From contig CM037865.1 in the NCBI GenBank assembly GCA_021292105.1, positions 18,383,533 to 18,447,532 on the forward strand: a DNA stretch of 64,000 bases. The letters run 5' to 3'. Shown one piece after another: positions 4,240 through 40,081 of this stretch. Made by a program: the position numbers and the translations under genes. Every line of letters starts with the position of its first letter. Position 1 is the stretch's first letter. Below the pieces are notes generated by a model. The model ran no database searches, was not told the DNA's origin, and saw nothing but the letters and a program-made list of their open reading frames with translations. The DNA is from Anadara kagoshimensis. Lineage: Eukaryota; Mollusca; Bivalvia; Arcoida; Arcidae.

Positions 4240-5400
4240 AAGTTAACCACTTTCCTAGTCATTTAATACTGACACCGGGTGAACAAATCGCTACTCTTTC
4301 AATACAGAGAGACAGGTGAAGAAGCAGTATCTGATCTAGTCATGGTTTAACTTAAAACCCCCAATTCTCGACACAGACACACTAACACTGAACCACTCCG
4401 GCCGGTCGTGCAGTAAGGGACTTTAGTGTCACGCCACTGACATCAGGATTACAGATCTCACCCAAATGACCTACAACTTTCATTCCTCAATACATAGGGC
4501 TCGGCGAAAGAACAGGCACAACCGACATCCATGTCTTGTTCACGGCCTATCGGGGCTTGAACCGTCGACCGCCAAATACGAAGCGATCACTTTGCCTACT
4601 GAGTTGCAAAAATGATACAGTTGATATTGAAATTTTTAAAATTTGCAAGATATTATACCAATTAAGAGAAAATGGTGATATTTTTGTTACTGAATTTTGT
4701 TTTTCTTACTGTATAGTTGTTTAATTTTGCGGGTAAAAAATTTGCTGTTCAGACACTGGAACTTATTCACGGGTATAAAATTTCGCAGTCCTGTGGCGAG
4801 TGTTAACAATTTTCTGCACGGATTATATCACTCAATGTTTAATAAATGCTTCATGAAAATATTGACTTTGTATTTAATTTCGCGCTATGAAGTCAAACCG
4901 CGTATATAACAAAATTAAATCCGCAGTGAATAAAAGCAACTATACACTATCTTAAGAGAAATTCAAAAAAAGAAAAAAAAAGACATTTACCGATGGAAAA
5001 TTCAACTAAAACATTGACTAGGCTAAATTGTAGCTTGAATTTGGTTAGAATTTATCAAGACACAATATAAATATTTTTTCTTGGTTGAGATCAATGTTTA
5101 GAATTAAAAATTGAAATATAACCACTAATTTCCAACTTACAGAGTTACAAATACACCAAGATAATATAATGCTGTCAAGCAGGCGGGTTGTTGTTCCCTC
5201 TGACATATATTTAAGGGACTCGTACCTAAAAATTCTATCAGAGGAACGATCTAATATTTGACCCCTAATCGTACATATAAATAGAAGTAGGTTACGGACG
5301 TAGTAGAAGAATCTTTATCTGTGTCACATTTGTACTGCTACATGACGCGTACGTTATTTTATATTTTCTCTAAATTTTTATGTTTATATCCAAAGTTTGA
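4240..5400 (-). repeat. 1.15-kb dispersed repeat with two tRNA-like heads (copy 1)
   Basis: Nearly the whole segment is matched, in reverse complement and in the same order, by 11640-12805. Landmarks in both copies are the 'tgaagaagcagt' block, the 'cggccggtcgtgcag' block, a 'gacggttcaagcccc'-like B-box, 'gcaaagtgatcgct', 'tgctgtcaagcaggcggg', and the 'acgtccgta'/'acgcgtac' end. Two tRNA-like promoter regions lie in tandem near the 4.3-4.6 kb end, so at least that part resembles a dimeric tRNA-derived SINE; the rest is unknown. Divergence is considerable and no conserved reading frame spans both copies. Confidence 0.8.
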
Positions 5401-7590
5401 TTCAATCGTTTTTCGGTCTTATAACATATTTTTCCAAAATGTAAAAAATAACTGTGAGAAAAAATTCTATAGTTTTACAACATATAAGTTTAAATTATTT
5501 TCAAAAAATGCATCATTATTTTTTCTCACAATTTCTTAAATAAAATAAGTTCAGGCAATTTTTGACTCCGAAAAAGTTAGAACCTAAAACGTAAGCTAGA
5601 AATAAAACTGCATCATATTAATTTTTAAAAATAGTTTTTATACCAGAAGAGACATTGAATAATGTACTAATGATGTCTAGTTGGAAATCTTGAAATGTTT
5701 TTTTGATATTGAGTTATCCTAATGTATTCAACAAAAATCAAATCGCCCGTGGTTAGGGCAAAAACGCTCTTTTCTGCAACATGTTTTTGAAAGAATATCT
5801 ATCAGAATTTTTTGTTGAGCCGTTACATTTCAATAATTTTATAACAGCAAGAAACCTGAGAAATGAAATTTCTCTTTTCAGTGATACCAAATTTATTAAA
5901 ATCTAATGTTAATTTGATTTTGAAATCATCGATTGAAAGATGGGGTGTGTGTAAAAAACGTCAAATCGTGCGTTTTCGCACGATTGGTCAACAAAGGGTT
6001 ACCTTGTTTTAACTCACTGATTCTCTTTCTGGTATGCTAATTGATGTAAACGGTTGACACACTTCCTCATTCTGAATAATAATAATTAAACGATGAAGAA
6101 TGATAACAGCAAAAACAAATTGCAAAAATCGAACAATACATATTTCGCATGTTTAAACAATTAGCTGCGAATCTTTTGATATATTGAAAGGATACTGAAT
6201 TAACAACTAACAACTTATAGATCTGAAATCCATTGCTGATTATCAAACGACATTTTGTTTACAAAATATGTGTAAGGTAATGAAGACATAATTTTGAATG
6301 TTCGTCTTCGGTAACAAGATGGCGCCTATCAAGAATAAAGTTAACTGGATAACGAAATTGTAATGTTCTGTTAATTTTGCCCGTTGCTAGCGACAGACGA
6401 AAATTGTATAATGAGTAAACAAAAACCTAACATATCGGTCCGTGGTCAAATTACAGTCCAAAAAATCATTCTAAAATTTAAAATTTGCAGTTTATTGTTA
6501 CTAACGTGAAACATAAATAACCCAGAGGTTTCCGTAATTGCTTCTAAACAATGTGAGCAGGTCGGTGGCATGGCACGAGAACAGCGTACAACTATGTTAT
6601 GTGAAAATGAACGTGTCGGCTCGTCTACTAAGGGGTTCTTTAGATAGTGCAGTTCCCTTCATAATTTTGGAGTGAACTACTTTGATCTCAGTTAATAAAC
6701 ATTTACTTGGACTATTGTAATTGCCATAAACAAGTGCAAATTTTAGATGAAGTACTTATTCTTTACAAGTTATACAAGCCTGTAAAATGTTCTTGTCATC
6801 TTTCAAAGCAGTACACGTTTATTCATTTTAACTGTGATTTACTTTCCTGTGTAACTTGCGTACCTCAACTTCCGCGAATGCACAACTTGCTTCCCTTTTA
6901 CCGCTTACTATGTCCCAGCATTGCACAGTTTAATGTTCTCTGGTTAGTTAACCAATAATTATGCGAGAATTTGTTTTGGAGGTTGAAAAAGTACAGATCA
7001 CCTGTTTAAAAGTTTGACTTTTAAAATACCGTAATTGACAAACAACTGTTAATACTACATTTGCATTATGAACAGGTTTAATAAAATGTATTTGTGTTGT
7101 ATGAAACAAAAATGTTACTCACGTGGTTACATGGGTACGTGTAACTTGTTGTAAACTCGCCTGTGAATAGTTCTGATACTGAACTTGTTTCTACAATGAT
7201 TAAAAGACAAAAACGAGTGTGCATGTGAAAAGAAGACAGAATGAAATAGAAACAATTACCTTTAAAAAAACTTATGAGCAATGAAAAACAAGTATTTAAC
7301 TGTGCTCAATAGAGGCAAATATAAAACCGTCGTCTCTAAACAAACACTAGGGAGCTTTGTAACATTTGATCCCTGATAATGAATGCACCAATATAAGCAA
7401 CGATAAATGAGAGCAATATTTTCGTTCGTAAAGGACACAAATATGAGAACCTGCAATGAAAACCTACCGAATTTGTTTCGTTATGAGAACAATTTAATCA
7501 AAATCAAACATACTAATCCATGTCTGAATCACAATACAGACGCAAGGAAAGAACTTTAGAACTGACAAGTTAGGTTAGACACGTAAACTT
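5401..7590. other. Non-coding region, nothing recognised
   Basis: AT-rich sequence without supported genes. The small open frames (83 codons at 6707-6958 and others) have no recognisable motifs, and no splice signals frame them. Confidence 0.4.
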
Positions 7591-7591
7591 C

Positions 7592-7815
7592 CACCAGAAA
7601 AGTGAGGTCATGTGCTCCGGAAGGGTAAGCACCACCTGTTTAGCTAGCTACACCCGCCACGTGTGTAACAAAAATTGTGTGCAAGGAACATGGAACTGTG
7701 AGACGTCAAATATATCTAGAGACATCAATCTTATCAACAATACTGTGATGACGGCCATAAAACGTTTTGAGGGCCTTAATAAGCCTAGGCTTGCAATATC
7801 CATAAGTCAAACGAT
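7592..7815 (-). mobile_element. 3' fragment of the YIDD-type retroelement (minus-strand copy)
   Basis: The minus strand of about 7598-7815 matches the plus strand of 14160-14415. It starts in the last codons of the reverse-transcriptase frame ('CKPRLIKALK', 'FYGRHHSIVD') and continues into the 3' untranslated block with 'ccacgtg', 'ggtgcttaccctt' and the 'ggagcac' phrase. It is a 5'-truncated remnant, as LINE-like elements commonly leave. Confidence 0.8.
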
Positions 7816-8009
7816 AAATTATATGCATTGTTCCTCATAATTTATTATCTGGTATCAACATTTGGGTAAATGATTCATAGAACAACCATACTAATCTAAT
7901 TTAAATCACAAAACCAATAGGAAATCGGAAGATCTGTAAGCATCAACATACGCAATGTGTGAAATCAAGGAAATCGAAAATGTGAGAGGTCAAATATACC
8001 TGTGGTGAT

Positions 8010-8110
8010 TTTGGACACGGCAACTTTAAACAATATTTTATGAAGGCAATAAGATTTTTTGGGGGTTTTGATAATCTTAGGCTGGCGATATTATTCTGTG
8101 AACTATCTAA
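8010..8110 (-). mobile_element. Degenerate fragment of the same retroelement
   Basis: On the minus strand, 'cgccagcctaagattatcaa' followed by a 'ttttgccttcat' block resembles the 'CKPRLIKA..K.F.GRH' coding stretch at 14180-14235, at lower identity. It lies about 200 bp from the better copy at 7592-7815 and in the same orientation, so both may derive from one insertion or a local duplication. Confidence 0.45.
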
Positions 8111-10562
8111 TCCTAAGGAGCGTGTTTCGTTAAATATATCACATCTGGGTAAAACACAATTGTTACAAAAGTTTTATTTGAACTTACCATTGTCCACTGG
8201 TCCTTCTCTTTCCACGTGTTTATGTAATAATATTTTTGTTTATAATTAAGAAACAGCTTAACCAAGAACATGTATATAGGCAAACGATATTGACCTGTCC
8301 GTTTGACCTGTCATCAGGAATATTCATATAGAAGGGCACAGCCTGTACATAGGTAGTAGTAGGGTTCGCCACATTAAGAATGTTCACACAAGATAAGTGA
8401 TTAGTGATCTCATTATGTATGCAAAATAAACCCTTGTGATTCCTATATATAAAAGCTGTCGTCCACAATGAATATTTAAAATGGCCATTTCGTACCCAGG
8501 TACCATAACCATTTTGTACCATGACCATTTCGTACCTAAATTTAACATTACTAAGGTACGAAATGACTAGCAAAATTTAAAAATCTGCGAAGATCATAAC
8601 GACTTTTCCTTTTATAACACGCATTTCTTTGCAACATTTATATCAGTACGTGAATTTATCGTCTTACCGGAAAAGTATTTAAACCCTGTGTGCAGATGGT
8701 TATGTAATCACGTTAACCACCAGTGCCAGTAATGGTGATAAGATTTGGAAAGCAAGAAACTAAATTTATCGATGAACACGCCTGCTGCATGATCTGTGAT
8801 AATTTTATATGTAATTAGTATAATTAATAAATAGTGTTGTCCCGAACGCCTAACCTCAATAGAGATGGGGATTAAGGGACCTATTCAAGGGTGTTTTACC
8901 TGTAATTTTACCTATAATTTACCTGTTCAAGTTTAAGTTCTATATTATCTGTATTTTGATGTCATCATAATTATTTATAATTATTTATTGTTATCCCCAT
9001 TACATGATATATAGTTATTTAATTATGTATCTTAACTAATTATATAACAGAACATGTAAACAAACATTACATAGCCATGAACAGAAACAATTTAACTGTG
9101 AAAATTAATATCTATTTACACTATTATTTATACAGCATATATATAGTAAGAAATTATGAGTTCTGGGGTATCCGCGGGATAGTGTAAATCAAGCGTTCAA
9201 GGTTCATACAGGGTATTAAGAATATAAACAACATCACAGCAAAGTGGTTATGTAATCGATAATTTTATCCGGGTGAAAATGTGTCCGGGAGGATATGCTT
9301 TCATGGTAAAATCTATCTGGTGGAATAAATGTCATGACTTATCCGTAAAATATTGTATATGAACAATATTTACTTGCATGGACCAAAGATATTACCCAAT
9401 GAAAATATTCCATGTGGATAAAATAAACCATTCAATGTACATTATTTCGAAATTATCTACACTCGAAACGATGATATAAATATAAATCTACTGTATTTTT
9501 TGTTCATGGAAGCATAATAAATATTTAAGTTGTTCCTATTTACAAAAGACTAATTGATTTATAATAAAATTTCTGATATTTTATTTATCGTAGTTTAGAA
9601 AACTAAGTGCATTTAAAATAAATACATAGGCACGGTAAACACCATACCGGCAAATTCAAAATGGCGATTGATCGAGGGCGGAACATTTATTAAAGTCCGT
9701 TTACAGCCAATTAGTCTCTTTGTTTTTGTCCCTTTTTATGGGGTTAACGTGTGAATAAAAACCATAGCTTTTTGCATCGTGAAAACAAGCCTATGCCGTA
9801 ATGTGGCCTGTTGTAACCGGTGTCGAATCTACTCTCTTGATTTCGTATTAAAACTTTTTAATATCGCCTTCTTTATCGCTATGTAAATTGTTTTAGCGCT
9901 ATTTTCCTAACCTTTGCGGCGATACCAAAAACAGGAGTGAGAGGGTTTTTCATATGCTAATCAGTTTCTGTTACGGGTCATTAACACAATCTTAGCTTCT
10001 TCGACTCTACGAAAAAAGTCACCCCTCATTACCATCTGTGTGTATATTAATATCACCATCCGTTTTCCTGAAACTCGTTTAAAGTGAATGTTTCTAAAAA
10101 TCTACACAGTTGTTGATTTATCGTTATTATTTTATCCATATTTTCTGCTACAACGATCAGAAATATTTGTTAACATACGCTTCTAATTATAATCCGGTAA
10201 CATAATGACTAAAGGCAAAGTTGACCGACTTTTACAACACATGTACACCTGATCATGCATGTGGTAGTTCTTGCCAATCACCAAGAACTTGCAGTCTTAC
10301 TAATTACCCGTAAACACTATTTATAAGTTCAATTAGTTACCATAATTTACCATTTCTTACATATTAGAATTTTACTGTTCAAAAAAGTATCAATTTTCCC
10401 TTGATATAAAATCATTGAAATGGGGGAAAATCAGAATCAAAACAATTCATTAATAATTTAATTAAATATTTCGAAAAGGGAAAACCATGAACACGATACT
10501 GTAATGAATTCAGACTTCCCGCGTAGCATTATTTAAATTGAGTCTATAGGTATCTTCATTCA
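8111..10562. other. Non-coding region
   Basis: No gene supported. Around 8476-8567 the phrase 'catttcgtacc' or a close variant occurs three times forward and once inverted ('ggtacgaaatg'), a small cluster of direct and inverted repeats. The remainder is AT-rich with no identifiable element. Confidence 0.4.
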
Positions 10563-10564
10563 AC

Positions 10565-10618
10565 GTTTTAAGTTTTTCTAGGTAAAGTAAGCCGTTCTTA
10601 AATGAATTTCAGTAAGAA

Positions 10619-10685
<67 letters not shown>

Positions 10686-10780
10686 GTTGTCTCAAATAAT
10701 GATTTGCATGTGAATTGTTTTAAGTTTTTCAGGGATAAGTATGACCGTTCTTAAATGATTTTCAGTAAGAATTATTGTAC

Positions 10781-10833
<53 letters not shown>

Positions 10834-10867
10834 CGTTGTCTCAAATAATGATTTGCACGTGAATTGT
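10565..10867. repeat. Tandem duplication of a 152-bp unit, each with a (GA)n tract
   Basis: Two consecutive units share the order: 'gttttaagtttttc', 'ccgttcttaaatga', 'ttcagtaagaatta', a (GA)n run, 'cgttgtctcaaataatgatt', 'tgcacgtgaattgt'. Unit 1 begins at 10565 and unit 2 at 10717. The GA runs differ in length (about 62 bp at 10623-10684, about 50 bp at 10785-10834), and unit 2 has a short insertion ('tgtacaac') before its run. Confidence 0.9.
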
Positions 10868-11099
10868 GGCAAGAATGCTATTTCGCAAAAAAATCTTTTG
10901 TAAACAATTTTTTTTTGTACATGACATACTCGTAGGTGCAGCATTATAACACATGTATTTTGATAACTATTGATAAATTGAAACAATTTTGAGTAATTTT
11001 ATCAACAAATTTAGGAAAACAATATCCGTCCTTGTCAGTCATGTGAAGTGTTGCGTGTCAACATCGTCGATAAGTATTTCTTATTGAAATTAGCTTAGT

Positions 11100-11630
11100 A
11101 TTTTCCTGTCCAAAATGGTTTAGACCAAAATGTAGGTCTTAGACAAAATAGCCGTTGTTCAAAATTGACCAAAATTTACGGAATATGGGAAAAAACTGAG
11201 AAAAGTTTTAGAATAGAAATATTAAAAATTAATTACGGCATAAATTGTATAATAAATGTACGATTTTACTTTTTGACTATTTGCACGTCGGTGAAGAAAG
11301 GCAAAATGGCGCAAAATGAAAATTTAATTTTTTTAAATACCTTTCCGTAATATTTGGACATTTTCCGGAATAATAAGTCAAAATCCGAAATAATTAGGCA
11401 AAATGATTTTAGATTCTTTTGATTCCGGAAAATTTACTGTAAAAAATATAGCCTAATTATTCCGGATTTTGACCGATTATTCCAGATTTTGTCTGATTAT
11501 TTCGGATTTTGCCTAATTATTTTTGATTTGACTTATTATTCCGGATTTTTGTCTTAAGATTCCGGATTTTTCCAATGATTACGGAAAGTGTCTAACTATT
11601 TTGGAATTTCGCAATTATTCCGGTAAAACC
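11100..11630. repeat. About 20-bp periodic array ('attattccggattttg') with inverted arm
   Basis: From about 11450 to 11625 a roughly 20-nt unit, 'ctaattattccggattttga', repeats about nine times with drift. Between 11349 and 11415 the same unit is present in reverse complement ('tcaaaatccgaaataattag'), so the array has a centre of inversion near 11430. Weaker copies extend left to about 11110. No coding potential is evident, and the unit is not a simple microsatellite. Confidence 0.75.
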
Positions 11631-11639
11631 CCCTTCTAG

Positions 11640-12805
11640 TGAAACATGGTATAGACATGAAAAATGGCGAGAAAATATAAAATTATGTACGCGTCATTCA
11701 GCAGTACAAATGTGACATACATGTATAAGGCGTCTTCTACTACGTCCGTAACATACTTGTACGATTAGGGGTCAAATATTAAACCGTTCCTCTGATAAAA
11801 TTTTTTGTTGTCACCAAAAGTATTAGTCCCAAAAATATATGTCAGAGTGTGACCTCCCAACGGAACAACACCCCGCCTGCTTGACAGCATTATATCATCT
11901 TGGTATACTGGTAACTCTGTAAATAAGGGTTTATATGTAAATTTAAAATGTTTAATATTGATTTCAACCAAGAAAAATATTAATACTGTGTCTTGATAAA
12001 TCCTAACCAATTTTAAGCGACAGTTTAGCCTAGGCCATGTTTTTGTTGATTTTTCCATCGGCAAATGTCATTTTCCCCTTTTTGAATTTTATAGTTGCTT
12101 TTATTCACTGGGGATTTAATTTTGCTATATTCGCGGTTTGACTTCATAGCACGAAATTAAATACAAAGTCAATAATCTCATGTTGCATTCATTAAACGTG
12201 GACCGATATAATCCGTACAGAAAATTGTTAACAGTCGACACTGGACTGCTAAACTTTATACTCGTGAATACGTTCTAGTGTCTGAACAGCAAAATTTTTC
12301 CCCGAAGAATTAGTCAACATTACAGTAAGAAAAACAAAATTCAGTAGCAAAATTACCACCATTTTCTATTAATTGGTATCTCAATCGCAATTTTATCATT
12401 TTCGTAACTCAGTAGGCAAAGTGATCGCTCCGTATGTGGCTATAGACGGTTCAAGCCCCGTCACACTGTAACCAAGATATGAAAGTCGGTAGTGCCTGTT
12501 CTTTCGCCAAGCCCCATGCATTAAGGAATGGAAGGTGTAAGTCATTCGGGTGAGGTCTTTAATCCCGATGCCGCATGTAACTGTAAGCGTGACAGTAAAA
12601 TCCCTCACTGCACGACCGGCCGGATTGGTTCAGTGGTAGTGTGTCCGCCTGGGGAAAAGAGGGTTTTAAGTTACAACCGTGGCTAGGTCATATACTGCTT
12701 CTTCACCTGTCGCTCGGTATTTAAAGAGTAGCGATTGTTTCACACGGTCTCATTATAAAATGACTGGGGGAGTTGAGTTGATAAATGGTGTTTAACAGTC
12801 AAGAA
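11640..12805 (+). repeat. 1.15-kb dispersed repeat with two tRNA-like heads (copy 2)
   Basis: Collinear inverted partner of 4240-5400. The first tRNA-like head starts near 12405 ('taactcagtaggcaaagtg', then 'ggttcaagcccc' as B-box). A second A-box-like 'ggttcagtggtag' follows near 12628. The 3' side ends with 'gataaatggtgtttaac', a phrase common in molluscan repeats. A 99-codon minus-strand frame (12064-11765) exists here but is closed by substitutions in copy 1, so it is not treated as a gene. Confidence 0.8.
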
Positions 12806-16982: not shown

Positions 16983-17412
16983 TGACATTGTTACATTTAT
17001 TATAATTTTATCGTGTCTTTTTTTTATAATGTATACGGTAATTCTGCGCTGTTCGTCACCGTGAATAATTGAGTGTATCCAGTGATTTGTTTATGAATGC
17101 GTTGGTTCAGCCATAAGGAAAAAAATATTAGTAATTGTTATAATCAAAGGCTTAGGGATATCTCGAGGTCATTGGTAATGGTTATGGTAGCGACCACAGA
17201 AATATATAATTGGTGGGTTTAAAATATGTTTCGTGTTTCTTGGAACAGATGGTTAATAAACTTGTAATTTAATCTGCCGATGGATTGTGCAGATGCTATA
17301 GGTGATACCAATGGATTGTGTTGTACCTGTTTAGCCGCCGATGGACTGTGCGGTTGATCACCGAAGGACTGTGTAATACCACACATTTTTTAAACTGTTC
17401 TGAAGAAAGTGT
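16983..17412 (+). repeat. Left LTR, first part (split by insertion)
   Basis: Starts TGACATT. Its continuation is at 23143-23391, ending CGTTACA. The two parts together align to the reverse complement of the intact, inverted LTR at 27646-28376. It contains four copies of 'ccgatggattgtg' or a near variant (17276-17372), present also in the inverted LTR. Together the parts make about 680 bp, in the usual range for a Gypsy LTR. The last five bases, AGTGT, are the left target duplication of the inserted TIR element. Confidence 0.85.
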
Positions 17413-17577
17413 AGTGGAGCGGCTAAGTCAAAAAATTGGCCAAATAGTTCACTTTGTGATACAAGTATGAAACTTGGTACATATGTTTATTGGATCATGG
17501 ACTTTGCAAATCCACCGTTGGCCATTTCAATTTTGACCATTTTCAAGATGGCCGACGCAAAAATCAAAATGGCGGCT
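17413..17577. repeat. Left terminal inverted repeat of the nested element
   Basis: Pairs with 22970-23137 in reverse complement. The outer 17 bases are identical, followed by small indels. Both arms contain 'caagatggc' and 'aaaatggcgg'-type motifs near their inner ends. Confidence 0.85.
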
Positions 17578-17737
17578 TTTTTAGGTTATATTTATTTATT
17601 ATACATCCTAAGATTAAATTGTTAGCTTTTTAATAAGATTTTGGCTCTAAGATATGTGTGTTAATATGTAGTTGTATTTCTTTTGTTTATTTGATAAACC
17701 AAATAGTTCAGGGATTGTGAACTTCCTGTGAAATTGC

Positions 17738-20700
17738 TCAGTTTAAGTCACAGTTGCAGCTGCATAATGCTGTACATGGCAGACTGGATCTATAGCATTT
17801 GCAGTTTCCTACACAAAGCCTTTTCTTGCAGCCACACTTCACTAGTTCTTGACAACAAGAAGCAACCGCTTGAAGAGAAGTCCAGTATGGTACCCAGTGA
17901 TCGCCATCTTTTCGCCAACCCCATAAAGATGGAGATGGCAATTCTGGTTGACATTTAAGTGCTTGGCCCCAAACATGACCGGACTGAAAGGCACTCCGCT
18001 TTATATGCTGCACTAGTGCTGCTTGAGTTGGTGGGATAGTATCATATGTTTTCTGCTTCCTGGCGAACAAACTAAACCGCGCTTCATTAACCTTCACTGT
18101 TTGAACTGACCTGTCATATAAGACTACTGTAAACGCCTCAATTATTGATATATCATCATTGCTTATACAAGTCGGTCTATTACTTAATCGGCTAAATACC
18201 TCTGTCACTTCATCAAAAACTTCCCAAGCCTGCCATGCTGACTTTTTTCCTTTTGTGTGAAAAGCAGATACTGTATCACAGCCTGTAAATGCGTGGAAGA
18301 ATGGGAGTGCTATTGACCTAGGTCCTAAGGAATTGTTAAGTTCATGGATTGGAATCCACCGAAAGTCTTTGCCTCTACCAAATGCAATCCAAAGTGTGTC
18401 AAGTGTCAGTGAGCTAAACACCGCTACTCCTATAACAACAACATCTGTATCAGAACTGCTAACAATTACATTTTTGTAATTACTTTCATCCGCATGTTTT
18501 ACGTGAAGGAAAATTCGTGTGTCAGCTTCTTCTTGTGAACAAGGTGCTATGTTTGTCTTGTCTATTTGTTGGTTGCTAAGAACACCATCATTACATGTTG
18601 CAAGAACAAGATTTGAGTCTTCTGTCTGAGAAACTATTTTTTGTGCAAGAAAAGTAAAAAGCTCAGTTTTATTTTCGTCAACCCTTAGAAAACTATTCCA
18701 ACTGCTTGGTACTTTGCCAGTACCCAACACTCTTCGCCGAACTCCAGTACCTCTTTTTAACCTTGTTTGAGCTTTCAGACTGTCATCCACATAAACATCA
18801 AAGATTATGTCAGTTCTCAAATATCTCTGTGCAAAAGATTTAATTGAAGGTATTATCACCTCGGATGCATATTCATCAAATGTCTTGGAACCTCCAGGAG
18901 ACCTTGCATTTACTAGAGCTGATCCATCAACAATCATAACGTCAGCCTGAGGTTCATCATCTTGTCTAGTAATGCGCTTTTCCAATACACTCATTAATTG
19001 CGATTTGGTGCCAGTCCTCATTTTTCCATTCTGGGATAGAGACGGTGGACTTACTTGGTTCTCATGCATGAAAAATTCGTTTAAATCACATTGTCTACTT
19101 TGACATGATATGAAAAGACGAGAAAAAAGCTGACAATCATCTTTAACTGATGCTAATTTTGTTTGGCTGGACGAGGACTGAGATGTTGGTGACTGATAGC
19201 TAAAAAGAGGCAGTTTACTTTTCTTGATAGGCGTGTAAAAAGACGATTGCTCTGATTGCGACTGCAATCTCTTCATGAATTCTTCAAATTTATCTTTCCC
19301 AATCATTTGTAGCTGAGCAATAGTTTCATGGACTTTAGGATCTGCGATTTCTTAGTAACCAAAGAGATCAAATCTTTTGAATCCTCTTCGAAGGGATTTC
19401 CAAGCTGATTTAAAACCTCAGTTAACCTGTCAATATTTTCTAAAAAGCGGACTTGATGAGATTTGCTCTGCTCATGATGCTCATCTAGATTTGTATCACT
19501 ATCGGATGCTTCAAACTGTTGAACTATTCTACAAATCTCAGGGCCAGCAACCATCCATCTTCGTAGTGCTGAAGGATCTTCAGTTAAACCAACAGCTCCT
19601 CCATCGCCCTTGACAAGTGCATTATTCTGTTCATGAGCATGATCTATTGCAATAGCAGAGAATGGTCTCGGTGTTTTACGAACAGTGAAATTGCCTTTTA
19701 GAAATTCTTCATAAACAGCTGGGTGAATTGTTTTTAACATAAGCATATCTTTCAAATGCACTGGAAGCCAACGAGAGTAATTAGTATGATCCAGAGCAAA
19801 GATATATGGTATAAGTTCTCGAAGAGTTTCAATGTAGAGCTGAAAATTCGCTTCTCTGTATGAGCGAACAAACATAAGAACAAGCAACTCTAGATTGAGA
19901 ATCATGTGCCAATACCGAAATTGTGGATGTTGTTTTGATTCTTGTATACACCACTCCTCTAAATTCAAATACGCATCTTCTCTGCTCCGATATGCAATTT
20001 TGAGTAGCCTATAAAGACAACAAGTAGTTATTTGATGAACCATACGGGTTTTTGCAATATTTGACGCAGATAGAAATGAATCTGCGGTGCCAGAGGTTGC
20101 AATGTCTGCCTCGACTAAAGCTGCTGTCCATCCACTATCCTTTAATAAATCTCCCAATGTTTTCAGTAAGGCCATTTCTATATGAAGTCCACCTAGAATA
20201 ACTACAAATTTGTCTTCACCATATTGCGCGGGCCAATACCACTGTATCTGTTTTGAAATGGCAAAAAGAGGTAGATCAGCCGTCAGTATAGGTATCTGAC
20301 CAGGATTCAAGAATGCTACTACTTCCTTAACTCTGTCCATAGAATGTTTTATTGTGGCTACTGAATGAGCTTGTTCAGGGAGTAATGGAAGTAATGAAGA
20401 AATGTTTGGTAAAAATTCTAAACCCCTTTTAGCAGCAGCGTGATGTGAAGACCATGTGGCATTAGTTAAATCCTCATCGGTAGCATTTACTTTCTCTAAC
20501 CAATTATATTCAAGTTTAACATTTTCGATTATAACATCAAAATCTGGGTTGGGAAATTCAGGAAAAGGGTCTGGTTTAGGATCTTCCTTAAAATAAGCTG
20601 GTCTGACATTGGTATAAGTTTCAGGAAGAGGAGGGATCTTCCTAGAATCTGGCGTAGCTTTTAAAGAAGGAAAAATTCTCTTTTCTCCCATACTGTCAAT

Positions 20701-22221
20701 ACATGGATGCTGGAAGATAGAAATTCCTGTCCCATGAAACGATGATTTAGCGGTGGTAGATGAAGGATTATAGTCTATGTTATCCACAGCAGCAGTAGTA
20801 AATAATCCCTTTCGAAGAACGGGTGGACATACTATACCATCTTCTACATACTGTGATACAACTGACTCGCCCAATAGACATGAAATTTCTAGAACTCTGT
20901 CGTATGAAACACAGATTCCATAATGGTGTAATATGTCAATAATTTGTCGCTTTCTTGTTTTTGTGTATATAAGCAGAGCCACATAGATAGCAAACGGTGT
21001 TTCGTGAGCCTTGGAATGCCTCTTGAAGCTGCCTTGCTTTGACTGTTTGCGGCAGTTGTACTGGAGAAGCTGCGCTAAAGCCAAATCAGAATCCATTGAA
21101 GAATTTTCAATCTGAGATTTAATATCTGGACCATTTACCAACATGCCAACTAATTCTACGAGCGAAACTGGAACTGATTCTTTCTGACTAACTTTGTCTA
21201 GTCGTCCTGTGAAAGATGTAGATTTGTAGCATTTCCTTTCGGATTGTGGATGCAGACTTTGCAAGCTGTAGAACGTCAGTGCTATAATCACAAGCTTGAG
21301 CAATAGCTAGACCAACATCTGTCTTAAACGACAGAAGTACATCACGGCCTTTTTGATAACATTCCAAGTTTGGAACAGACATCAAGATGTTTTCCTTTAG
21401 TCTGGTTCTATTGGGAATGTTGACAGATCCCAACTGTTTTAATCTCTGCGTGTAAAGATCAAACAGGTCGGCAAGCCTAAACACAACTGCTTCTTCACTA
21501 CTTCTGTATGTTTCGTTTATATATGTTACAAGTTCGGCCAAGGCTACTGAACATGAAACCACTTCAGCTTGCAAAGTTGATGATTCTAATGATCGAATAT
21601 GCGCTCTCTTCCTGTTATATAATGCAGTTAGACATGCTGTGTGATATTTTAGTTCTTGAGCAACGACATCACCACCACTCAACTTAGCCAGAAGTTTTTG
21701 ATCTTGTAATATAATGGCACACTCTTGCAGTGTTTCATTTAATTTCATAGTCATTGCTTCTCTAAGCTCCTTCTTTGGAACAGTTTTCTCGCACAAGAAA
21801 CATTCTTCTGTCTTACTGATTATTAACTGACCACTTGATCTGCGAGTAAATTTGCTACAACTTGCTGAATCCTCAGATGACCCTTCAGTCAGTTTATGTT
21901 TTTTCTGTAGACGCTGTAATTTAGTGTTGTTAAATTTCAGTCTACAGCTTTGATGATAAAGAGCCTTGTTGTTCCTAAGAGTAGACTCAATGCCACTGCC
22001 GTCGTCTAACCTCCGAGGATCCAGTGCAATTGGCATTTCATTTAGATCAGAAAATAGAGGAATGTTGGTTGCAAGAGTTTTGTATCCATCACTGTCAGAT
22101 TTGGATTGAGTCGGGGACACATCAATTTTTCTTCGGTAATTGTCTGACACAAACAACATTTTTCCCAAATTGTTGACCAGCTACTTTTAGTAGGGTTTGC
22201 CAGTAATACTTGATCTGACAT
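17738..22221 (-). pseudogene. Transposon gene: Cys/His clusters + DDE-like core + FEN/XPG-like PIN domain + Cys-rich tail, three frameshifts
   Basis: One gene in four pieces. A start at 22221 (ATG of 'MSDQVLLANPTKS') leads to 'WEKCCLCQ'. Frameshifts lie near 22100, near 21240 (between 'STIRKEML' and 'TSFTGRLDK') and near 19350; each piece continues the same protein type. N-terminal clusters are 'CCLC...YHQSC' and 'CFLC...YHTAC'. A middle region holds 'AAVDNIDYNPSS' (about 20780), 'ILTADLPLF' (about 20285) and 'IDHAHEQNN' (about 19635), a plausible D-D-E set. The next 522-codon piece (19306-17738) has 'MIVDGSALV', 'EEADTRIFLH', 'SSDTDVVVIG' and 'FTGCDTVSAF', whose order and acidic residues resemble FEN/XPG-type PIN nucleases. 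The end is a cluster 'KCGCKKRLCVGNCKCY'. I know similar uncharacterised proteins from invertebrate and fish genomes. Function as a transposase is inference. Confidence 0.75.
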
Positions 22222-22969
22222 TTTAACTATATGCAAATAAATTATCAAACCAAGTCGAGGGGCTATCCTTTTACCACTCGGAAGTAATACTTCTTTGCAT
22301 GGAATCAAAAGCACTTTATTGTATGGGATACAACAAGGTTCGGGATTTTGTCTTTTTTGCCTACACCTTGCCCGATCGTTCATCCAGTATCATTCAACTC
22401 CCGTGCGATCTGTACACCATCCGGAAAACCTAGTCCCCGTTTTCCTTGGCTCGGCTCTCCCGCGCTGGCACATCCTGTCCATTCAGGTGCGACTCCTTGA
22501 TCACTATGTAGGGGGAAAATCAAAGAGTATTTGGGAGACTGTTCCGTGATAATAAAAAAAACCAGGTTATGAAACAGCTGATACTGAACCCCATGCTGAG
22601 TTTAACAGCTACGATTTAGACCAATGTGCCTTGGTAGTGCTGCTAAATCGTACATCTTTTATTTTGTATGTGGATAAGTTCATATTGCTATCCTTTTAAA
22701 ATTAGACATTGTTGTATTTCTGTATATTGAAATGGTAAATACTACTAAGAACAACAGTTACATGCATTCAGAAGAACAGGAGCACTTTGACCTTAGAGTC
22801 CCTCTGAAATCGCCGCCATTTTGAATTAAGATGATAGTAATCAAGCAGAATGCCACATTCAGACACATTTCATGTCAGGTGTGTAATATCTAGTCATTGT
22901 AAAATGATAAATATAACCAACCGTGGTCATTGAATTGCCTATACTGGTACCTTCTGATTTTTAAACATA
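22222..22969. other. 5' region of the nested element's gene
   Basis: Between the gene's probable start and the right inverted repeat. 22380-22500 is noticeably more GC-rich than its surroundings. It should contain promoter and leader, but no specific TATA or initiator could be chosen. Confidence 0.35.
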
Positions 22970-23137
22970 AAAAATGGACAAAACCCGCCATTTTTAATTT
23001 ATTGGCAGCCATCTTGAAAATGGACAAAATTTGAATGGCCAACGCTGGATATGTAATGTACATGATACAAATAACCTGTGAGCCAAGTTTCATGCTTGTA
23101 TCACAAAGTGAACTATTTTTGACTTAGCCGCTCCACT
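22970..23137. repeat. Right terminal inverted repeat of the nested element
   Basis: Reverse-complement partner of 17413-17577, ending GACTTAGCCGCTCCACT just before the AGTGT target duplication. Confidence 0.85.
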
Positions 23138-23142
23138 AGTGT

Positions 23143-24734: not shown

Positions 24735-25100
24735 AGAAACAGAACATTTTAGTACTACGAGACACTGGTTGTAATGGCGTCGTTATAAGGACATCCTTAG
24801 TCAAAGACAATGAATGCTTGATAGGAAACAAACATGTAAATTAGTTGATGGTAGTGAGGTTCCGGTTCCGGTTGCACAAGTTAAAATAGAGTGGAATTAC
24901 TAATGCGTGGTGTTTGGAATCGCCGCTATATGACGTGATAATCGGTAACATTTCCTGTGCACATCCACCTGACAATCCAAATAATAATTGGGAGAAAGAA
25001 GTGATTAGCGCGGTTAAAACAAGAGGAATGAAAGTTAGAGCAAGCAAAGCGGATAAATTACTAGTTCCACCGAGATCCAAGGCGTTGATCGGATCAATTT
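24735..25100 (+). pseudogene. Aspartic protease domain remnant
   Basis: 'LVLRDTGCNGVVI' carries the DTG active-site triad at 24761-24769. 'LYDVIIGNISCAHPPDN' near 24920-24975 is the C-terminal flap/hydrophobic end typical of these proteases. Stops near 24843 and 24900 break the frame. It would process Gag-Pol. Confidence 0.75.
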
Positions 25101-25109
25101 AAAAAATGC

Positions 25110-26330
25110 GCAAGTTCACGATGAAACACTAGTTCCTTTATGGAAATTAGCGGAAGAGAATAATAAAACAGAATCAGCAAATCGAGTTAAGACTAGATTT
25201 TATGTACGGAATGATATTCTACTTGGAGAACGTATAGACAAACGGGGAAAGCGTACTCAGTTAGTGGTACCAAAACAGTTTTGCGAGGCTGTGTTGAAGT
25301 TAGGTCACGACTCGGTAATGTCTGGACACTTAGGTACAACAAAGACTGTTGATCGAATGTTGATGAAGTTCTTTTGGCCAGGTATTATTACAGACATTAC
25401 GAGATACTGCAAATCGTGTGATGTATGCCAACGGACTGCACTGAAAGGACGTGTCAGAAAGGTCCCGATTGGTGATATGTCTATAATCGATAAATTGTTT
25501 GACCGGGTAGCCGTGGATATGATTGGACCGTTATATCATGCGTCAGATAGGGGGTATAGGTATATTTTGACAATCGAGATATCCTGAAGCAGTCGCATTG
25601 AAGCGTATTGAGATTACAGAATTAGCAGAGGCTTTGGTTGATGTGTTTAGCCGCGTAGGAATTCCTCGCAAAATATTATCTGATCGGGGTTCGCAATTCA
25701 CCTCTGAAGTAATGCAAGAAGTTTGTCGACTTTTATCAATCAAACAACTTACGACAACACCGTACCATCCGCTTGCAACGAATTGGTTGAAAAGTTTAAT
25801 AAGACATTAAAACAGATGTTGCGCAGAATGTGTGTTGAGTGCCCTAAAATTGGGATAGGTATGTGAATGCCTTGTTATTTGCCTATTGCGAAGTTCCTCA
25901 GGAGAGTTTAGGTTTTGCTCCTTTTGAGTTGATATATAGACATTCTGAAGGGGGACCTCTAAGGATTTTAAGAGAATTATGGACGACGGATGTACCAGAT
26001 TCGGACGTCAAAACAACATATTATTATGTACTTGATCTTAGAGAGCGATTAGAAGAAACATGTAAGTTGGCACATGAGAACTTAAAATTGGCAAAGATTA
26101 AACAAGCAAAGAATTACAACAAAGCAGCAAGAGCGAGAAATCTAACAGTTGGAAAGAAAGTTTTAGTATTACTTCCGATGAAGAGGAATAAACTACAGCT
26201 TCAATGGAAAGGACCATTTGAGATTGTGGAACAGTTGAATGACGTAGAATATCTCATTTAAATGTATAGTAAGATAAAAACATTTCATATTAATATGTTG
26301 AAGGAATATGTAGATAGAAATGAAATTTGT
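25110..26330 (+). pseudogene. Integrase (HHCC zinc domain, DDE core, GPY/F-like C-terminus), frameshifted
   Basis: The zinc-binding part has two His in 'LGHDSVMSGHLG' and two Cys in 'CKSCDVCQR' (25304-25437). The catalytic core has 'VAVDMIGPLYH' (first Asp, about 25515), 'ILSDRGSQFTSE' (second Asp, about 25680) and, after a frameshift near 25785, a Glu in 'LVEKFNKTLK'. The C-terminal part has 'LQWKGPFEIVE' (about 26200-26233), the GPY/F-type module of Gypsy integrases, and 'FHINMLKEYVDR' just after. Frameshifts near 25585, 25785 and 25850 and a stop at 26259 inactivate it. It precedes the reverse transcriptase. Confidence 0.85.
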
Positions 26331-27392: not shown

Positions 27393-27645
27393 ATGCCAAA
27401 TAAGGTAGAGTGGAATCAGCCACAGGAAAACGCATTTGCTACACTGAAGCAGTTATTGACATCGAAACCGACCCTTCGCTTACCTGATATACACAAAACA
27501 TTCGTATTAAGGACAGATGCTGCTGATTTGGGCATTGGTGCTGTCTTACTTCTGGAATTGAATGGAGTAATGCACCCAGTAGCATTTGCCAGTCGTAATT
27601 TGTTACCTCGGGAGAGACGATATGCCGTTATAGAAAAAGAATGCT
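27393..27645 (+). pseudogene. RNase H domain, truncated at inverted LTR
   Basis: 'LRTDAADLGIGAVLLLE' holds the first catalytic Asp and 'VIEKECL' the second catalytic residue (Glu). A Gypsy RNase H should continue for roughly 70-90 more residues, but the sequence switches abruptly to the inverted LTR at 27646. Confidence 0.85.
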
Positions 27646-28376
27646 TGTAACGAACCCGAGAGGCCGAACCTCGACATCTAGTCAATAAGTATATATTGGT
27701 GCTTTCAGTTGCGGTTAGAGTTTTTGGTATTTACATATCAGGACAGAAAATAGGTATTTTCACTGAATATTTTGATGACAGTTCTTTCAAGCGACAAACA
27801 ATTTTAGCCATATCTTCATCACATGAAACATTTAATGTTATTGTTCACATCATAACACAGTATAACACAGTTTAACACAGTATAACACAGCTTTTACACA
27901 AAATCAACACTTTCTCAGAACAGTTAAAACAAACGTGTAGTATCAAACAGTCCTTCGGTGATCAACCACACAGTCCATCGGCGCTAAACAGGTACCACAC
28001 AATCCATCGGTAGCACCTATAGAATCTGCACCATCCATCGGCAGATTAAATTACAAGTTTATCAATCATCTGTTCCAAGAAACATGCAACATATTTCAAA
28101 ACTCAGCAATTCTATATTCCTGTGGTAGCTATCATAACTATTACTAATGACCTCGAGATATTCCTAAGCCTTTGTTAATTACAATTACTAATAAATTTTT
28201 CTGATGGCTGAACCAACACGTTGATAAACAAACCACACCCTGAATAACTTGCGGACCCAATATCCAATGAAAACACTGGGTACACTCAATGATTCACTGT
28301 GACAAACAGCGCAGAACTACCGTAAACATTATAAAAAAGTAGACACGATAAAATTATAAAAAATATAAGAATGTCA
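27646..28376 (-). repeat. LTR in inverted orientation, uninterrupted
   Basis: On the plus strand it begins TGTAACGAACCC and ends AAGAATGTCA; its reverse complement aligns end to end with 16983-17412 joined to 23143-23391. It lacks the 5.7-kb insertion and reads through the site with a single AGTGT. The two LTRs differ by many substitutions and small indels. No short duplication flanks this copy ('agaatgct' before, 'ctagtg' after). Confidence 0.88.
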
Positions 28377-36906: not shown

Positions 36907-37269
36907 CGAGGGGTGTATACCAGAAGGTCGTAAGTGCAAAATTTAAAAATTTTGACATTTTATCATAATATTGCATATTTATAATTAATCTATCATTTGT
37001 ATAAATCTTGCACTTGAATTTGTTTTTATTAAGTATATATTACACAAAAACATAATGTCGTAAGTGCAATCTTCACACTTTAACACATACCAAAAGCTCT
37101 TAAAGGTACTCAGTACCTTTTGGATGATTTTCATGCCCTACTATTAACAAGTCTAAATTGGACATATGTGATCATAGGAGATTGTTCCAGTCAACAAGCA
37201 AACATTTATAAAGGGAGAATTTGCTCTTATTTGCCCTTATTATTAGGTTTGTTATTTTATTGCATTTAG

Positions 37270-40081
37270 GAAGAAAAGGAGATCAATAAAAAGGAAAAAA
37301 TTCTTATTTGAAGATGATAGTGACTTAGAAAACAATTCAAGTAAAAAGGATAGACAGGAAACACAACGAAAATCAGCTTGTACCACAAACCATAGTCAGA
37401 AGAAAAAACTTGTATCATCAAAACGCTTCAAAGCCAGAAACTTCACAGCAAATCAAACCATTCAAAACCAGTTTAGAAATGTAGGCTTGAAAAAGAAACC
37501 AACTAATTTAAACAGAAACCAGAGAAACACACCAGGAAGACCTAATGTATTGGTATCAAAAAAGATAAAATTAAAATATGTCCGCTCCAAAACTGCAAAG
37601 ACATATTCAGAAGTACAGAGTATTCAAAAAGTCAAGAAAAAGAGCTTTTTGGCTTACAAGGCAAGACAAATTGTATATAAAAACAATATAAGAACACTTG
37701 ATGTGCTACTGTTTAGTAATGGAATGCAACGACAGGAAATTCAAGGTGATGGTAATTGTTTTTTTCGTGCTGTATCTAAACATATAGGATACAACCATCT
37801 GGAACTACGGAATGCAGTTTGTGACCATTTTCTTAACCATCCAGATGAATATAACCGTGCTCTAGCAAATGAAAATTCATCATCCAATTATGAAGATCAA
37901 GTAAACTTTTTGAGACAAGAAGGAAATTGGTCCTGTGGGCTTGCAGATGCCCTTCCTTTAGCATCAGCCAATACTTTGAGAAAAGATCTTTTGTTATATT
38001 CCAGTTTGAGAGAGAGACCCATTTTGAGAATTACACCATCCCTGTTTGACATAACTTCAGACCAACCCATACCTCTAGCTCACATTGCTGTGTCAGGATT
38101 TGACCATTATGATGCATGTATCGCATTGAATGCCAATACTCCGTCTAATTCTACATCTAATTCTGTTACTGGTTCCACAACACCAAGGTCAAAAGATAAT
38201 TTTCCTTATAATACACAACCTAAAGTTATAACTCCAAGGAAAGCTGCAAAATATAAGAGTCCAAAAAGGAAATTTAGATGTAGAAAACGGCGTATTTCAA
38301 CACCTGAAACGTGGAAAAAGAATATAAGAAAATACCTCAGGTTATCTGGCAAAGAATATGTAACAACTACTGGCAAAACGATGAGAAAAAGAAAACTGCA
38401 GGAGCAAGACTGTGGAAAGTGCAGGTTTAAATGTTCCATCAATATTTCACTAGAAAAGAGGCAAGATATTTTTGAAAGTTACTGGAATCTAAATGACTAT
38501 AACAGACATATGGATTTCATCTGTGGCACGGTAAAAGAATGTGCGCCTGAACGAATTAGACCAAAAGCAACCAGGGTTCGTAAACGTACACGCCATTTTA
38601 GTTTTAATGTCAATGGTAATTATGTTCGTGTATGCAAATGTTTTTACCTTAAAACATTAGACATTGGTGAAAAAGTAATTGAAAGTGCTTTAAAGGCTAG
38701 AAGGTCTGGAACTTTTACATCACAAGACAACAGAGGACGCCACAAGCCAGCTAACAAATTACCAGAAGCCACAGTTTCTCACATTAGAAGTCACATCGAA
38801 TCTTTCCCATTAATGGATCCACATTACACCCGCAAAGACACACACCGCAAATTTTTAGGGAGTGATCTTAACATAACTAAAATGTATGAACTCTATAAAA
38901 TTGACTGTGGCAATAGAAACATTACACCAGCAGGAGCTTCAAAATACCGCAAAATATTCTGTGAAGAATACAATTATTCATTCCATACACCGAAAAAAGA
39001 TCAATGTCGGGTATGTAATCTGTACCTGGAAAAGAAAACAAATGGCAAGCTTGCAGATGGAGACCAAGAACAATATGATCTTCATATTAAGAGGACATTA
39101 AAAGCGCGGGAAGAAAAAACAACAGATAAGACCTTAAGTAAAACAGGAAATGATTTTCACACAGCCATATTTGATTTACAATCTGTTCTCCACACACCAT
39201 GTTCTAAAGTGAGCCAAGTCTACTACAAAAGAAAGCTTAATTGTTACAACTCTTCATTTTATTCGCTTGGAGACGGTCGTGGGACTCGTTTTATGTGGAA
39301 TGAGACAAATGCAAAACGCGGATCAAATGAAATTGGAACTTGTATTTTAAAATATGTTAAGTCTTTACCACCAACAATAAAACATGTATGTCTATATTCA
39401 GACAACTGCACAGGACAGAACAGAAACAGAATTGTTTCAGCAGCCATCCTACATGCTGTCTTAACATGTCCTAACAGCAAGACAATTGACCAAAAATTCT
39501 TAGAACCCGGTCACACAGAAATGGAGTGTGACTCCATGCACGCAGCTATTGAGGCGGCAAAGAAGAACACTTCGATTTATGTCTCTAGCCAGTGGGACAC
39601 AGTAGTAAGGCTAGCCCGTAAGAAAAAACCATACACTGTAGTTACCTTAAGACATCTAGACATCATTGATTTTAAAACCGTTTCAAAAAAGTTGTTTCCA
39701 CCGTCTGCGGTAGACACTAAGGGGTCAAAGTTGCAGTGGATGAACTGCAAATGGATACGATTCAGAAGCAGTGATCCTGACTGCATGTATTTTAAATATG
39801 AATTTGGAGATAATGAGTTTCAAATCTTCAAAATGAAATAAAAAAAAAACAGAAAAGGCGGCATGATCCACATAGCTGAGTCTGTGACTCAGTGCTATGC
39901 TGAAAAATTACCAATTTCTGAAAAGAAAAAACGTGATTTGATTTCACTTTGTAAAGACGGTACAATCCCAGAGGAATATGCCCATTATTATTATAACATG
40001 CTTTCTGATGCTGAAATCGGTGATACCTTGCCAGAACCAGACCTCTATGATGAGGTTGAAGATTCTGACTTTGAAGTTTAA
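37270..40081 (+). pseudogene. OTU cysteine-protease domain fused to a transposase-like (DUF7869-type) core; in-frame stop near the C-terminus
   Basis: The frame is open from a splice acceptor ('ttattgcatttag', ending 37269) with no ATG before the methionine at about 37721, so the start must lie in an upstream exon. A basic N-terminus is followed by an OTU domain: 'GDGNCFFRAV' holds the catalytic Cys (37757-37759) and 'DHYDAC' the His (about 38106). A Cys-rich region ('CGKCRFKC', 'CRVCNLYLEKK') leads to a probable RNase H-fold core with 'FDLQSVL', 'YSDNCTGQNRN' (about 39397) and 'GHTEMECDSMHAAIE' (about 39508). A TAA at 39839-39841 interrupts it. The same frame continues for another 79 codons (39842-40078), including 'LPISEKKKRDLISLCKDG', the usual tail of this protein type. 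OTU domains cleave ubiquitin chains in other proteins; the role here is unknown. Otherwise intact, so probably a recent copy. Confidence 0.8.

Follow-up and report, generated by a model that had tools for sequence, protein, structure and literature searches.

The window analysed here is a stretch of 64,000 nucleotides from the bivalve Anadara kagoshimensis (C9:18383533-18447532), and the genome in which its relatives were sought comprised 1.115 Gb in 36 contigs. It contains a mobile element bounded by inverted terminal repeats, with one minus-strand gene in which a candidate DDE transposase core and a PIN nuclease domain follow one another. The features concerned are:

17412..23138, minus strand: whole element, 5,727 bp, with termini TAGTGGAGCGGC...GCCGCTCCACTA, on the basis of the L009 copy and the terminal motifs
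17412..17598, plus strand: terminal inverted repeat, one end, including subterminal motifs of the AnATGGC type, from inverted-repeat pairs and motif count
22962..23138, minus strand: terminal inverted repeat, other end, on the same basis
17409..17411, no strand: left target-site duplication, GTG, from flank comparison; the empty-site relative reads AAAGTGTTGAT
23139..23141, no strand: right target-site duplication, GTG, from flank comparison and the empty-site relative
27600..28300, minus strand: related copy of the target repeat, lacking the insert at the corresponding position, from sequence comparison within the window
17738..22221, minus strand: transposase gene, likely start ATG at 22221 to stop at 17738, with frame changes in the window copy and a single frame in relatives
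21632..22158, minus strand: N-terminal zinc-like region, with CCLC (22158) and YHQSC (21958), then CFLCE (21802) and YHTAC (21646)
19327..21234, minus strand: DDE core, candidate catalytic codons at 20784 (D151), 20277 (D320) and 19632 (E535 of HEQNN)
17882..19009, minus strand: EXO1/FEN1/XPG-type PIN nuclease, with acidic residues encoded at 18928 (D142), 18799 (D185), 18529 (E275) and 18523 (D277)
codons 18451 (D301), 18445 (D303) and 18277 (D359), minus strand: further acids of the PIN nuclease
codons 18775, 18763 and 18754, minus strand: basic residues K193, R197 and R200 of the PIN nuclease
17741..17836, minus strand: Cys-rich C-terminal tail (CGCKKRLCVGNCKC...CTALCSCNC); absent from lineage E

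Since a further copy (L009, C9:18696958-18702686) aligned to exactly 17412-23138 with 99.6% identity and with different flanks, the ends of the element could be fixed independently of their symmetry. They lie one base outside the bounds given in an earlier note made from the letters alone (17413..23137), so that the element reads TAGTGG...CCACTA. The inverted terminal repeats described there were found as two pairs of arms, 17412-17434 with 23116-23138 (100% identical) and 17442-17598 with 22962-23118 (80%), and AGTGGAGCGGC occurs twice in the window at up to one mismatch where 0.13 occurrences were expected. The element has been mobile in the past. Another copy, L020, matched over the whole 8.5-kb stretch fetched, flanks included, at 99.5%, so it arose from the same insertion by segmental duplication and is not a separate one. 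The terminal 2 x 450 bp (17412-17861 and 22689-23138) contain seven AnATGGC motifs against 0.59 expected from first-order Markov resamples, none of 500 reaching that number, the motif having been picked after inspection of the sequence. The count is also high in lineages B (seven in L010, five in L022) and D (five), weak in lineage E (two, reached by 35/500) and not enriched in lineage C (one, reached by 150/500). These motifs could be sites for the transposase or for a host factor; they resemble the YY1 site AAnATGGCGGC.

The element was inserted into a repeat, a related copy of which lies inverted and without insert at 27600-28300; this is a paralogue and not an empty allele. Together with the flanks in the window it fits a 3-bp and a 5-bp duplication alike. 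We scanned the window and 25 loci fetched from the genome (L009-L028 and L037-L041) with five terminal motifs from these loci, allowing up to two mismatches. Both ends were present in 20 copies (the window and 19 loci), but not in L014 (one end only), L021, L023, L025, L037 or L038. The flanking repeat was exactly 3 bp in 18 of the 20 (17/19 with the window and L020 counted once), 2 bp in L012, absent in L017 and 4 bp or more in none, where by our own estimate a 3-bp flank would agree by chance at about 1/64 of sites. The duplicated triplets vary (GTG, TAA, CAT, ATA, ATG, TTA, AAC, TGT, TCA, CTT, TTT, GTA and AAA). This check on full-length copies, which the earlier note had itself proposed, replaces its 5-bp duplication by the 3-bp GTG; the reading AGTGT arose because the A/T of the element termini chances to extend the GTG match.

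The minus-strand open pieces of the window copy encode 537, 667, 330 and 115 amino acids, and the order of motifs first noticed in them (Cys/His clusters, D..D..HEQNN, PIN series, Cys-rich tail) is indeed present. The description of one long gene applies to the family, which has uninterrupted relatives, but not to the window copy, in which frame changes interrupt it: the frame crosses the same junctions in L010 (1,137 amino acids), L011 (1,236) and both L040 and L041 (1,549, the whole gene). The spacing of the N-terminal Cys and His residues is equal in lineages B (L011) and C (L024) and in L023, and the second unit is also found in lineage E (L040).

D151 was found in 16/16, D320 in 18/18 and E535 in 16/16 of the covering alignment rows, which are not independent of each other. 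The structural model of this part, although of low confidence, has an RNase-H-like order of elements with a long helical stretch between the second D and the E, and its best VIA structural match, a moderate one, was the P-element transposase; Foldseek returned nothing for the model at E <= 0.001. DUF6589 (PF20231) matched the DDE core weakly in 13/18 rows (best 5e-5; lineage E 3e-4), with 11.7 and 20.1 bits in the two rows scored, both under the 27-bit cut-off. To judge from these alignments, DUF6589, a Pfam family without assigned function, may be a transposase core; that it is the Academ core is a conjecture. Elsewhere in the genome, C6:30725233-30726849 and 26 further matches to DUF6589 (27 in total, best 1.3e-40) are candidate members of Academ's helicase branch.

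For the PIN part the model was good, and all 50 VIA matches listed were nucleases of EXO1, FEN1, XPG, GEN1 or XRN type. Nucleases of the FEN/EXO1/XPG group bind metal through seven acids and have basic residues in the arch, and in the covering rows we found D142 in 12/12, D185 in 13/13, K193, R197 and R200 in 13/13 each, E275 in 16/17 (the exception, a K, lies where the L009 row begins out of frame), D277 in 17/17, D301 in 16/16, D303 in 15/16 (one row ends there) and D359 in 15/15. Fold prediction and acid conservation, two of the checks suggested beforehand, upheld the guess of a PIN nuclease and, with the weaker model, that of a DDE core. The proposed profile-database comparison yielded the weak DUF6589 match for the DDE part; among the Pfam matches of the window pieces and of each row of the two alignments, with bit scores given for the first rows, there was neither XPG nor a known transposase family. 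Searches of PDB sequences with the two profiles gave nothing up to E 1 and with single proteins only chance-level matches (E 0.48 and 0.63). No relative of the DDE piece was found among phage records or of the PIN piece among viral contigs.

The DDE core and the nuclease co-occur in one protein. Across the 25 fetched loci, the PIN part lay collinear downstream in all 20 taken from the 69 matches to the DDE piece, the DDE part lay upstream in all three taken from PIN matches (including L037), and both lineage E loci carried the two domains. In L014, L040 and L041 the DDE part and the whole PIN part share one frame. At the protein level L037 is 23-33% identical to the window, and lineage E 22% to L037.

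In this genome the terminus TAGTGGAGCGGCTAAGTC occurred 50 times forward and 51 times in reverse at up to one mismatch, against one and zero for the reversed control. Ten lineage B elements were 97.0-99.6% identical in all 45 pairs. L040 (C9:11488300-11496300) and L041 (C12:19753300-19761300), on different chromosomes, are 99.9% identical over 7,065 bp; these 7.06-kb elements have inverted repeats of about 915 bp starting TAGCCCAAGAGC, 3-bp duplications and an acidic tail where the window family has the Cys-rich one. At least 76 of 124 matches share one identical score, at least 19 of them in an uninterrupted frame of 1,549 amino acids; lineage E was read at L040 and L041 only, and the other rows were assigned to it because their score is identical. 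The near-identity of these copies points to recent transposition, and the remote AcademX lineage E has apparently undergone a recent burst. Across the genome, about two dozen pairs of window-family termini lie 3.6-3.8 kb apart (e.g. C5:54362168-54365904), which suggests an internally deleted, decayed derivative family.

The nuclease of AcademX is called XPG type. According to PMC10045372, AcademH makes target-site duplications of 9-10 bp and AcademX of 3-4 bp, apparently tied to the encoded helicase and nuclease, and PMC10294476 reports that bivalves have Academ in abundance and that its curated consensi average 5,565 bp. The present element has a DDD/E core conserved in all covering rows (low-confidence model), a nuclease joined to the transposase and a duplication of 3 bp in all but two of the 20 copies. 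Since these fit the description in PMC10045372, we consider it very probably a decayed copy of a DNA transposon of AcademX type, Academ being compared by description only. A superfamily of its own, in which a P-like DDE core and a FEN/XPG-type nuclease were combined independently of Academ, would suit that same comparison by description and the lack, among the matches shown, of a Pfam match above cut-off for either domain. It is nonetheless quite improbable, since the duplication length and the nuclease agree with AcademX, Academ elements of similar length are common in bivalve genomes, and the DDE part is weakly similar to DUF6589, subject to the conjecture above. The earlier note could name no superfamily and called the architecture unusual; it is so among transposons at large, but it already has a name. 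A transposase and a flap-type nuclease in one protein is an already known combination, and the element is a further AcademX member. In the literature searched, AcademX appeared only in PMC10045372, DUF6589 appeared nowhere, and no test of the AcademX mechanism was found.

We propose that a single protein of about 1,500 amino acids, as in the uninterrupted relatives, would use its zinc-like N-terminal region to bind the subterminal repeats. Cleavage of the 3' ends and their joining to the target, staggered by 3 bp so as to give the 3-bp duplication, would fall to the DDE core, and the 5' strands to the FEN/EXO1-type PIN domain, which would either release the element by cutting the non-transferred strand or trim 5' flaps at its ends. 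It is most likely that the nuclease handles 5' strands, either during excision or on ends already joined; this division of labour, like every biochemical step above and the step that the nuclease serves, we infer from the anatomy of the protein. The narrower proposal that AcademX is a two-enzyme excision machine, with DDE on the 3' ends and the nuclease on the 5' strand, and that 5' processing sets the 3-bp duplication as against the 9-10 bp of the helicase branch, is unlikely in that full form. The substrates of FEN1/EXO1-type enzymes are 5' flaps and gaps, which would favour a nuclease that has no part in excision and works only after integration, on joint structures such as 5' flaps. AcademH, with a helicase instead and longer duplications (PMC10045372), also speaks for this variant, which is compatible with an AcademX protein that divides the strands between its domains and to which we give somewhat less than an even chance.

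Since transposons capture host gene pieces, the nuclease could also be a passenger, a piece of a DNA repair gene that plays no part in transposition. The ratio of nonsynonymous to synonymous substitution (dN/dS) gave no evidence of selection, synonymous sites being saturated in nearly all pairs between lineages and the only unsaturated pair (L021/L025, DDE part) giving 0.63-0.71, near neutral. Against a passenger, the nuclease was found in 25/25 fetched loci, in proteins as distant as 22-33% identity, and the covering rows, uninterrupted lineage E included, conserve the seven acids and the three basic residues of the domain, which makes this reading most improbable. With several lineages in the genome, one having at least 19 uninterrupted frames, the role of a repair-type nuclease in a transposase is open to experiment, and the P-like core offers a structural template.

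Elsewhere in the window, a plus-strand frame of 864 amino acids at 37247-39841, possibly another transposon protein, matched an OTU-like protease (25.9 bits, cut-off 23.3) and, just under the 26-bit cut-off, DUF7869 (25.5 bits). A series of long inverted repeats at 4249-12773, framing about 8.5 kb (e.g. 4655-4944 with 12090-12379, 88%), is probably another mobile element, and the plus-strand fragment at 25057-25587, which matched the zinc-binding domain of integrases (E 1.8e-19), is probably a retroelement remnant.

Among known systems, EXO1, FEN1, XPG, GEN1 and XRN resemble the PIN part in fold and in the succession of residues D, D, K..R, E-x-D, D-x-D, GCD, but in the element this domain is fused to a transposase and lacks a Pfam XPG match. 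TnsB and TnsA of Tn7 split the processing of the strands in a similar manner, where AcademX would use a repair-type PIN nuclease instead. The P element and hAT (Hermes) transposases, the best transposase matches of the DDE model, share the long helical stretch from the second D to the E; they are not known to carry a PIN nuclease, and they were dropped since their duplication is 8 bp and that of the element 3 bp. Kolobok was dropped for its TTAA duplication. AcademH belongs to the same superfamily as AcademX according to PMC10045372, which gives it a 9-10 bp duplication and a helicase; it was dropped because the duplication here is 3 bp and neither the window pieces nor L040 matched a helicase. 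With AcademX, taken from its published description only, no difference was found, and the element shares with it the transposase with nuclease, the 3-bp duplication and a length near the bivalve Academ mean.
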